Below are positions 22,001 through 27,975 of a stretch of 64,000 bases of DNA, in pieces. The notes beneath the pieces are model-generated. The model did not search any database. It saw nothing but the letters and a program-made list of their open reading frames with translations, and was not told the DNA's origin. Numbering within the stretch: the stretch's first letter is position 1; every line of letters begins with the position of its first letter. A program made the position numbers and the translations under genes. The stretch spans positions 6,055,035-6,119,034 of the forward strand of contig CM067533.1 in assembly GCA_034509925.1 (NCBI GenBank), read 5' to 3'. This stretch comes from Hirudinaria manillensis (taxonomy: Eukaryota; Annelida; Clitellata; Hirudinida; Hirudinidae).

Positions 22001-25000
22001 TGCAATGGTTTGCCATTGGCGTTTGATTGTTGCTTATACAAAATGTTGTATTCACGATTTAAAACCCCAACTTGTACAGCGGCCTGAGTTCCTCTGCTGC
22101 TGACGACCTGTTCTTGTTGAACGCATCCAAGCTTGCCCTCTACGGTGTTCACAGACAGGAAGCCAAAGTAAATAGAGGCCAATTTTCCATATTATCTCCT
22201 TTCTTTTCTCCACCGTCAGTTGATCTTTCGACCATCGAAGGATGCTCACAACAATGCCGTGGAAATTGGAGTGAATTCCGGAGGATTGGTCGTTTATCAA
22301 GACAGTCTCAGGATCAACAGGTTCGTGTGGCCAGGGATGCTCAGGATTTCTTACAGAGGAACGAAGTTCATCGTCGACGTTCGACCAAACATCGTGAGAT
22401 TTTAATTCATTTATTTTTTTTTTTTTTGCTTTTTGTCAAATTCTTGAGCTATGAATTGATTCTAAATTGTGGTATTAAATATTCTTATGCCTGGTGGAAT
22501 CAATTAGCTCAACTACAAGATGGTCATGGGTAAAATTTGACTGACACCCCACTCAAATTCGCCCCCAACTGCGTCCAATTTTCAGATTCTTGCTGCTCCA
22601 CCGTTGAAAACACGCGCGATGAAAAGCAGAAATCATGTCATCACTGCAATAAACACAGCTTGGGGTGTCGCATTTTATCTGCGAATATTTTTTTGGGCGT
22701 TCTTCTCGACTCGTGACATAAATTACCCGCTCAAATTGTAAAATAATCTCCTATTCTTCGTAGAATACGAAGACTGCGCTACATAAATCCAATGAATCCA
22801 ATAATGCTTTCAGAAATCGCAGAATTCAAAATCTCTGTTCAAATACAAAATGGCGGACTTCAACGTTGTTCGCGGTTTTTGGCAGGTGGTTGTTGAGCAT
22901 CATTCCTTCTTCAGGTTTTCAATTCTTTTGTGAAGAATTTGCCCAATCGTTGAGTAGGATGTATTATCGTATCGACTGTCATTTTAAAATCGCCAAAATT
23001 TATTTTAATAAGATTATTATTGTTATTGTTATAATAATAATAATAATAATAATAATAATAATAATAATAATAATAATAATAATAATAATAATAATAATAA
23101 TAATAATAATAATAATAATAATAATAATAATAATAATAATAATAATAATAATAATAATAATAATAATCATCATCATCATCGTTTATGTTCGAGCGAGCGA
23201 TAAGTGCGCATGTTTTGTTTTGGCTCTCGAGTTTAAACGATTAAACATCGCTTCAAAGTCAATTTTTTTAATTGATTTTACTTTCTGCTCGTGTCCCCTA
23301 CCGTTAGTTTGTCTTTCGGTGAACAGCCTACTTCCCCGAGGGAATTTAGAAAAAGGGGAAAATATACCTGCACATCCGTTGTATTCGACATTTCTTTCGG
23401 GTAACAAACAGGTTTACAAACACAGGAATCGTTATTCCTCAGCGGTTGATTGTATTTGGTGTTGGTTTGGTGATTATGGAAGATAAGAACTGTCAGAATA
23501 AAGTCTTTGGCTGTCAAAGAAAGAAAGAAAATTCTTCAGATTCTGTTGGAACACAGGTGCATTGTGAATTCTGTGCAAAGACATTTGCTTCTGTTAGAGG
23601 TAAACATATACATGAAAACAGAATTCATCCAGAAGAATATCATAAAAATAGAGCAGGTCTTCCCTCTTCCAAGGCAAGATGGACTGAAGAAGAATATTGC
23701 ATGCTGGCTTCCATGGAGGTTGAATTGATTAGAAAGGGAGTTCACAATGTCAATCAGGAACTCCACAAAAGATTTGAACATAGATCGTTGAATGCCATCA
23801 AAAGCCGTAGATTAACCGAGAAATACAAGACAACTCTAGAAAAATATCTCAATCACTCAACAATATCAAATGAGGAGTTGATGCATCAAGGAACCAATTT
23901 TTGTCAGGATTCTAATCCATCAGAGGATAGTGAGTGTTTTGTTCCCAATTTGCATAACACTGAGTCATGGAATGTACTGGCCAAGGCTGAACTTAGTCTT
24001 GGGGGAACACACAAAAACAGAATCAACCTCTCACTTCAGCAGCAATTTCCCTCCCTCAGTGTGGATGCTATAAAAGTGATTAGAAATAAGCCTCAATATC
24101 GTCATCTTCTCTCAAATATTATAATGGCAGACGTTAAGGCCGATGCTGGTATCTCAGCCTGTTGCAAAGCATTAGACCCAGAAAATATTATTGGTCCCTT
24201 GCAATTCATTGAAAGAAGAAGATTTTTTCTTCGATTGTCTGATGAAGAGTTCAGTTCGCTCATTGATTCCACTGAGGTATACGAGATTAAAAGGTCACTT
24301 ATCAACATAGAATATCAGAGATGGATTGCTGGCATAACAGTGTCAAAGAAGAGGACTCAAAAAGTGGCAAAGAAACATCAGACGAAGAAGCAAGACAAGG
24401 TGCAAACAAGTGGCCGCAAATTCGTCAAATGGATCAATCGCAACTCAAAGCGTGCGATAAAAGAGAGGCGTCGGAAGGAGCAGTATGCGAGGATCCAGCA
24501 GCTGTTTAGGAAAAGTCCAAGTCTTGGGGCACAAACGGTAATGAAAGGTGACTACGAGAAAAATGCAGTATGTCCTTCCGATGAAACATTGGTGGAGTAT
24601 TGGGAGAAGGTTTTCACTCAAGCTTCCAAAACCGACTCCCGGCCATTGGATGAAACGATTGAGCCTATCGATGAAATGGACATTCCAATCACGGTCGATG
24701 AAATCATTCACGCGGCAAAAGGATTGAAAGATTCTGCCCCCGGCTTTGACGGCATGAAAAAAATTGATCTGAACAAAATTGCACCGGAGGACCTGGCGAC
24801 TCACATGACGCTTTGGTTATTTACTGGATGCCCTCCCGATGCACTCAGGAAAGGAATTGTCACCTGCATTCCAAAGAAACAAGAAAGTCTGAAGCCAGAG
24901 GATTTTAGACCAATTACGGTGGGATCAATCATCGGTCGTTTATTTCACCGATTGCTGAGCAAGAGAATGCTCGCACACTGGTCCATCTCAAATCGTCAGA

Positions 25001-27975: not shown

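Follow-up and report, generated by a model that had tools for sequence, protein, structure and literature searches.

The window analysed here is a 64,000 nt stretch of the Hirudinaria manillensis genome (C8:6055035-6119034 of assembly G000; 148.4 Mb in 23 contigs). On its + strand, as are all features below unless noted, lies a full-length LINE with a poly(A) tail (23184..27063), delimited by its target duplication and by aligned copies. A 5' UTR (23184..23475, from the 5' junction to the ATG) precedes a single ORF, P0001 (23476..26868; 1130 aa), which runs from an ATG at 23476 to a stop ending at 26868, with no internal stop in its 1130 codons. The 3' UTR (26869..27041), with the terminal sequence GGCCGAGAAAATAAAGG, and the poly(A) tail (about 27042..27063), which continues into TAATAATAA, were read directly from the sequence. 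The first bases of the element differ among copies (TTTATG, TATG, or ATG). On the 5' side is the target microsatellite, a (TAA)n array without assigned strand (23031..23167; 45.7 copies and 100% matches by Tandem Repeats Finder) that grades into CAT repeats, and the element is bracketed by left (23147..23183) and right (27062..27098) target-site duplications reading (AAT)7(CAT)4CGTT. These are ~37 nt long by reading and 35 nt by script, because two T residues can be assigned to either side. An earlier sequence-only reading had described the element in the same terms (position, 1130-codon ORF, poly(A), and (AAT)n(CAT)4CGTT on both sides), and its description was correct. Elsewhere the window holds two long tetranucleotide arrays, (GTGA)149 at 1-598 and (GGAT)155 at 55970-56589.

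Near its N-terminus, P0001 has a C2H2 zinc finger (aa 30-51; 23563..23628), recognized by motif and by alignment with R2Bm, and then a Myb-like repeat (aa 66-128; 23671..23859), also aligned with R2Bm. The latter gives z scores of 16 to 22 against the Myb repeats of two relatives described below (L053 and L055), and is modelled by AlphaFold as three helices with a pLDDT of about 70. A probable second Myb-like repeat, absent from the sequence-only reading, occupies aa 159-222 (23950..24141): its z score is 6.7 against the first repeat, 13-14 against the two repeats of L055, 19.6 against L056, and only 5.9 against L053, and three helices are predicted at low confidence. The reverse transcriptase (RT) core (aa 465-696, with FADD at 644-647; 24868..25563) is the sole Pfam match to P0001 at E<=1 (RVT_1, 1.2e-34); no finger, Myb, or restriction-like endonuclease (RLE) domain was matched in that search, and these three were assigned by alignment with R2Bm. 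A CCHC zinc knuckle (aa 949-966; 26320..26373), found by motif and by the same alignment, is followed by the endonuclease core (aa 1006-1045; 26491..26610), with PD at aa 1010, catalytic residues D1011, D1024, and K1041, and the sequence KTGKY, which matches the RLE motif KX2KY (PMC5678591). Catalytic spacing (13, 17) is that of D996, D1009, and K1026 in R2Bm. The AlphaFold model, made for P0001 together with three Escarpia proteins, is poor overall (mean pLDDT 50); the endonuclease core is its best-modelled part, at about 80.

A single ORF that encodes RT, a CCHC knuckle, and a PD..D..KX2KY endonuclease identifies an RLE-type LINE of the R2 group. In phmmer searches of the PDB, the top match to P0001 is R2Bm (8gh6; 374 bits over aa 310-1114), which also matches the finger-Myb stretch separately (aa 29-125), followed by other R2 chains at 240-257 bits and then LINE-1 at <=79 bits. 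The window element (family A) has one CCHH finger, as do the N-terminal pieces of two further families (B and C, below); this is the layout described for R2D (PMC5035012), though it does not set R2D apart from other RLE clades. The finger-plus-Myb combination, which the sequence-only reading had taken as a mark of R2, is likewise weak evidence and was set aside as proof, since such an N-terminus is reported for RLE LINEs generally (PMC5678591). The element is best read as an apparently intact LINE of the RLE type, autonomous and active in recent times.

A DNA search of the genome gave 189 candidate copies, of which 40 were scored and 30, with flanks, form the sample used here. Their identity to the window copy is 98.8-100% and 13 of the 30 have a complete ORF, both signs of recent activity; 12 (L027-L038) are 5'-truncated. 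At least three TAA units, (TAA)3+, lie within 60 nt of the 5' end in 29 copies (background 2.1%) and within 100 nt of the 3' end in 28 (background 3.3% for positions in the rest of the window and 3.9% for distal flanks). There are two exceptions: L024, where TAATAAT stands on the 3' side only and the 142-nt duplication consists largely of unique sequence, and L026, where the 3' flank reads N (unsequenced). Seven copies share one cluster on C12, so the sample represents about 24 independent insertions, and the binomial probability of 22 of 24 independent sites at a 4% background is 4e-29. With flanks this far above a background of 2-4%, target specificity is not due to chance. The target preference that the sequence-only reading had doubted, having one copy before it, can thus be stated for the family, and a check of this same sample for insertions at unrelated sequences, which would have told against it, did not go against it. 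The family inserts into TAA repeats as Dong does. No 28S sequence, and no canonical AAGG/TAGC site, was seen in the flanks of the sampled copies.

Might any AT-rich DNA serve, TAA arrays being merely common? Two more arrays do lie in the window (44159-44236, 26.0 copies, 94% matches; 46401-46487, 29.7 copies, 87% matches), and L024 sits at a bare TAATAAT. However, (TAA)3+ occurs near 3-4% of positions on the 100-nt measure, as against 28 of 30 junctions, and the repeats are oriented: TAA is on the sense strand of the element throughout, with TTA repeats in L037 only, alongside TAA. The flank counts and binomial probability make this explanation the least credible of those considered, and it was dropped.

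The repeats could instead be the element's own product, a 3' tail of (TAA)n; the I element terminates in TAA repeats (PMC3747384), and the poly(A) tail of the present family passes into TAATAATAA in most copies. Against this, TAA is found on the 5' side as well as the 3', the duplications consist of TAA plus unique sequence, and the array extends 5' of the element past the duplication in L009, L018, and L027. The 5' arrays and duplications rule out a self-made tail for practical purposes, and we consider it very improbable. Duplications, measurable only where the array is interrupted, are 35 (L009), 36 (L018), 142 (L024), 120 (L027), 64 (L038), and 23 nt (L037). It is close to certain that (TAA)n is the pre-existing, specific target of the family.

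The wider genome gives a similar picture. A 15-mer that families A and B share at their 3' ends, GGCCGAGAAAATAAA, has 160 exact genome sites (its reversed control has one), and at 64 of 75 forward-strand sites TAATAATAA follows within about 60 nt. In the stretch covered by both site lists, 31 of 40 sites have the TAA pattern, with a lower share on the reverse strand (16/24) than on the forward (15/16); at the others the repeats may be longer or interrupted, as they are in L037, or there may be no junction at all. The C12 cluster (G000 C12, ~355-419 kb; L011, L012, L014-L017, L023) contains full-length family A copies with ~0.5 kb of TAA repeats between them. These copies have an identical 5' junction (AATAGTTTTTTTTTAATAG, shorter by a T in some of them), and at least one copy of family E lies upstream; the cluster looks like an amplified element-plus-TAA unit rather than separate insertions.

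Family A is one of at least five TAA-inserted families (A-E) of one lineage in this genome. A search with the 223-aa endonuclease part gave 150 scored matches out of 564, 81 at 90-100% identity and 69 at 46-49%; a search with the Escarpia protein L055 gave 36 scored out of 1315, with open frames of 1112-1197 codons (two longer) belonging to several families. RT identity to family A is 54% for B and 57% for C, and thumb-to-endonuclease identity is 49% for D and 43% for E. All eight junctions read for families B-E, six 3' and two 5', are in (TAA)n: B at L048 (3') and L064 (5'), C at L049 and L019 (3') and L065 (5'), D at L034 (3'), and E at L012 and L016 (3'), the last two in one cluster. Other elements of the same genome include a very distant RLE LINE, represented by a C-terminal fragment on the minus strand (L039; G000 C3:9012000-9019000) whose 413-codon ORF has thumb, CCHC, and a PD...ELTVPWE endonuclease; APE-type LINEs with open frames up to 1098 codons (L040-L046); and L047, an element of LTR type in which the ORFs for RT and integrase have 1300 and 405 codons.

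Two UTR segments, which like the further families went unmentioned in the sequence-only reading, may act as structured RNA. A 5'-UTR block, GUGUCCCCUAC...AGGGGAAAA (23291..23366), is common to families A, B, and C; its 6-bp outer stem is invariant and the sequence of its inner hairpin varies. The z scores are -2.05, -2.28, and -1.46, and 2 of 13 consensus pairs have both sides changed; the lowest-energy fold of the window copy keeps the outer stem and not the consensus hairpin. A 3'-UTR block (26933..26976) can be aligned across five families and has an outer GUCC/GGAC stem and an inner GGG/CCC hairpin, with nine consensus pairs, one of them changed on both sides and some broken in single families. 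With three 5' and five 3' sequences to compare, this is suggestive only. Rfam searches of the element, the 5' ends of B and C, and the whole window gave just weak matches (snoR26, PhrS, CrcZ), which were taken as chance.

Relatives outside the leech were sought in the PDB (12 matches: R2, LINE-1, group II intron RT, Cas6-RT-Cas1), IMG/VR (none), plasmids (1), and GTDB contigs (12), and among these matches to P0001 or to alignment A1 none could be named as R4/Dong. The useful ones come from one scan of the GTDB contigs with A1, which gave 12 loci, five of them RLE LINEs. Four (L052-L055) are on contigs, presumably of host DNA, in a metagenome-assembled genome (MAG) titled as the endosymbiont of the tubeworm Escarpia laminata. 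L052, L053, and L054 run out in the right half of the canonical R2 site (TAGCCAAATGCCTCGTCATC), and the 28S end site of the Escarpia elements reads TAGCCAAATGCCTCGTC. L055, with large-subunit rRNA upstream, is an R2 element downstream of 28S with tandem Myb repeats; the Rfam HDV-ribozyme model scores 32.9 bits at its 5' end, under the cut-off of 50. The fifth, L056 (JAAEPL010000271.1, in a MAG titled Planctomycetaceae bacterium Cli_10), is an R2-like LINE whose frame is broken and which has a C2H2 finger and Myb, presumably eukaryotic contamination of a bacterial MAG; its 5' flank has no 28S (Rfam) and no TAA. Loci L057-L062 were rejected as close relatives, their ORFs looking like APE LINEs by eye, and L063 has no long ORF listed.

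The leech itself appears to retain elements at 28S. The assembly has just two exact copies of TAGCCAAATGCCTCGTCATC (C9:4290-4390 and 11180-11280; L066, L067), near the beginning of C9, each preceded by non-28S sequence with a different 3' end; apparently, both sites carry R2-type insertions. A 270-aa R2-like RT piece (L068) lies 1 kb upstream of one site, to which it is tied by proximity, and the sequence before it looks internally deleted. Its identity is 43% with family A, 42-43% with the Escarpia elements, 38% with R2Bm, and 29-33% with R2A. Family A is in turn 39% identical to L052 and L053 (714-716 aa), 32% to L055 (718 aa), 29% to R2Bm (722 aa), and 32-33% to R2A chains (425-457 aa); for comparison, R2Bm and R2Tg are 35% identical over 422 aa.

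That the closest relatives found are R2 elements at 28S rDNA is the reason for considering these families, probably, an R2-type (single-finger, R2D-like) lineage with a switched target: an RLE LINE specific to (TAA)n. The suggestion in the sequence-only reading of a distinct lineage gains support from these 28S-inserted neighbours, and loses the finger-plus-Myb argument on which it had been based. Absence of the 28S site bars the family from canonical R2 and does not bar R2 descent, since R8, R9, and R2NS are classed as R2 although they lack that site. A different placement is as members of the R4 clade near Dong, with the likeness to 28S R2 reflecting general R2-R4 kinship. Dong sits in TAA repeats and its 5' end lies right at the junction with TAA (PMC3774820), DongAg and DongBg occupy microsatellites (PMC3636483), and the N-terminus, being common to RLE LINEs, would suit R4 as well. 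However, the TAA families are as near the Escarpia and host 28S elements (39-43%) as those elements are to each other (41-43%), and the same 28S elements are farther from R2Bm (34-38%) and R2A (29-33%), over the pieces compared, than from the TAA families. Dong also has an HDV-like ribozyme; the 5' ends of A, B, and C gave no hit to the HDV-ribozyme model of Rfam, which is not very sensitive here.

Phylogenetic trees were built solely from R2 elements, APE LINEs, and one RLE fragment (L039). Families A, B, and C group together at 100/100 or 100/99 in RT trees. Rooted with APE LINEs, RT trees place them with the Escarpia elements, with R2Bm and R2A outside (80/90, 84/87, 83/92), and the same split of TAA plus 28S elements from R2Bm/R2A is found without a root (99/98, 92/96); with one APE outgroup, the TAA and Escarpia grouping has no support of note. 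In the RLE tree, where the outgroup (L039) has a very long branch, the TAA families stand beside R2Bm and 9nl2 at 58/51, too low a support to resolve their position. A topology uniting all 28S R2 without the TAA families was rejected by one AU test (p 0.035, in the set with the host 28S piece), which argues against an R4 position; the other four of the five did not reject it (p 0.277, where L056, itself unplaced, was put with the TAA families; 0.152 and 0.208, from the RT tree set that includes the one-APE-outgroup tree; 0.337, RLE tree) and so allow the TAA families outside 28S R2. The R2 tree could not be rooted consistently in the analyses of Kojima 2016 (PMC5035012). Descent from within 28S R2 is favoured by these comparisons, not proved. 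The R4 placement keeps a minor share of the probability because Dong targets TAA, the trees lack Dong/R4, and most topology tests are indecisive; an R2-derived lineage is about twice as likely.

On the preferred reading of an R2-derived lineage, its ancestor would have left rDNA, become (TAA)n-specific independently of Dong, and radiated into at least five families, a history that we think somewhat better than even. The sequence data directly show where the element inserts and in which orientation, its target duplications and truncated copies, its intact ORFs, and the conservation of its catalytic residues. From R2 by analogy, we infer the enzymatic steps, the domain that reads TAA, and possible roles for the UTR blocks; the direction of the target switch is likewise an inference. 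The protein would bind its own RNA, perhaps via these conserved blocks, while the finger and Myb repeats would bind TAA DNA. The endonuclease would nick the strand complementary to TAA within the array, and the freed 3' end would prime reverse transcription at the poly(A) tail; a cut in the opposite strand, about 23-142 nt downstream, would yield the long, variable duplications and 5'-truncated copies. The positions proposed for the two cuts are drawn from the duplications and from the continuation of the array 5' of the element. With TAA arrays scattered across the genome, such an element would escape the limited, competed-for rDNA niche.

R2-type elements are best known for insertion into ribosomal RNA genes; R2 proteins are under development for writing genes into rDNA, and the determinants of their target are an open question. 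If the interpretation is right, these families are a natural reprogramming of target recognition with an unswitched relative in the same genome. The mostly intact TAA families, beside their 28S relatives, would then offer a natural comparison for mapping target-reading residues; the N-termini to be compared carry a single finger, followed by one Myb repeat or two. In the open-access PMC literature (Repbase and most subscription journals being outside this scope), no TAA-specific element of the R2 clade was found; within that literature, this lineage would be the first of its clade known to have a specific non-rDNA target. If the families are R2-derived, R2 and Dong would have arrived at one microsatellite by separate routes; if they belong to R4, Dong-like elements would be linked more closely to 28S R2 than the portions of the literature examined suggest.

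Among known systems, the TAA families are most like R2 as represented by R2Bm, the Escarpia elements (L052-L055), and the host piece L068: they share a single ORF with one CCHH finger, Myb, RT, CCHC, and RLE, with identical RLE catalytic spacing and 29-43% identity. Unlike 28S R2, they target (TAA)n and have a probable second Myb-like repeat, which is found in L055 too. Their long, variable duplications are unlike those at the fixed 28S site of R2, and resemble the very long target duplication that R9 reportedly makes.

Dong (R4 clade) is alike by description, as an RLE LINE in TAA repeats; apart from the ribozyme, its 5' end, as printed in the primer GCTCCCTAAAATCC, differs in look from that of the TAA element (PMC3774820). 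Togen, at (TG)n, and some HERO families are also RLE LINEs that use microsatellites, but belong to other clades (PMC4640811). Within the R2 superclade, changed targets are known from R8 and R9, which PMC5035012 presents as alone among R2 lineages in having left the usual site; unlike the TAA families, both remain in rDNA. The same source describes two non-specific R2 families. R2NS-1_SMed, R2NS-1_CSi, and BLAG are R2-like elements outside 28S (PMC5035012; PMC7650587), and in this they resemble the TAA families; they are, however, described there as non-target-specific, and BLAG as lacking Myb, whereas the TAA families are specific and keep it.
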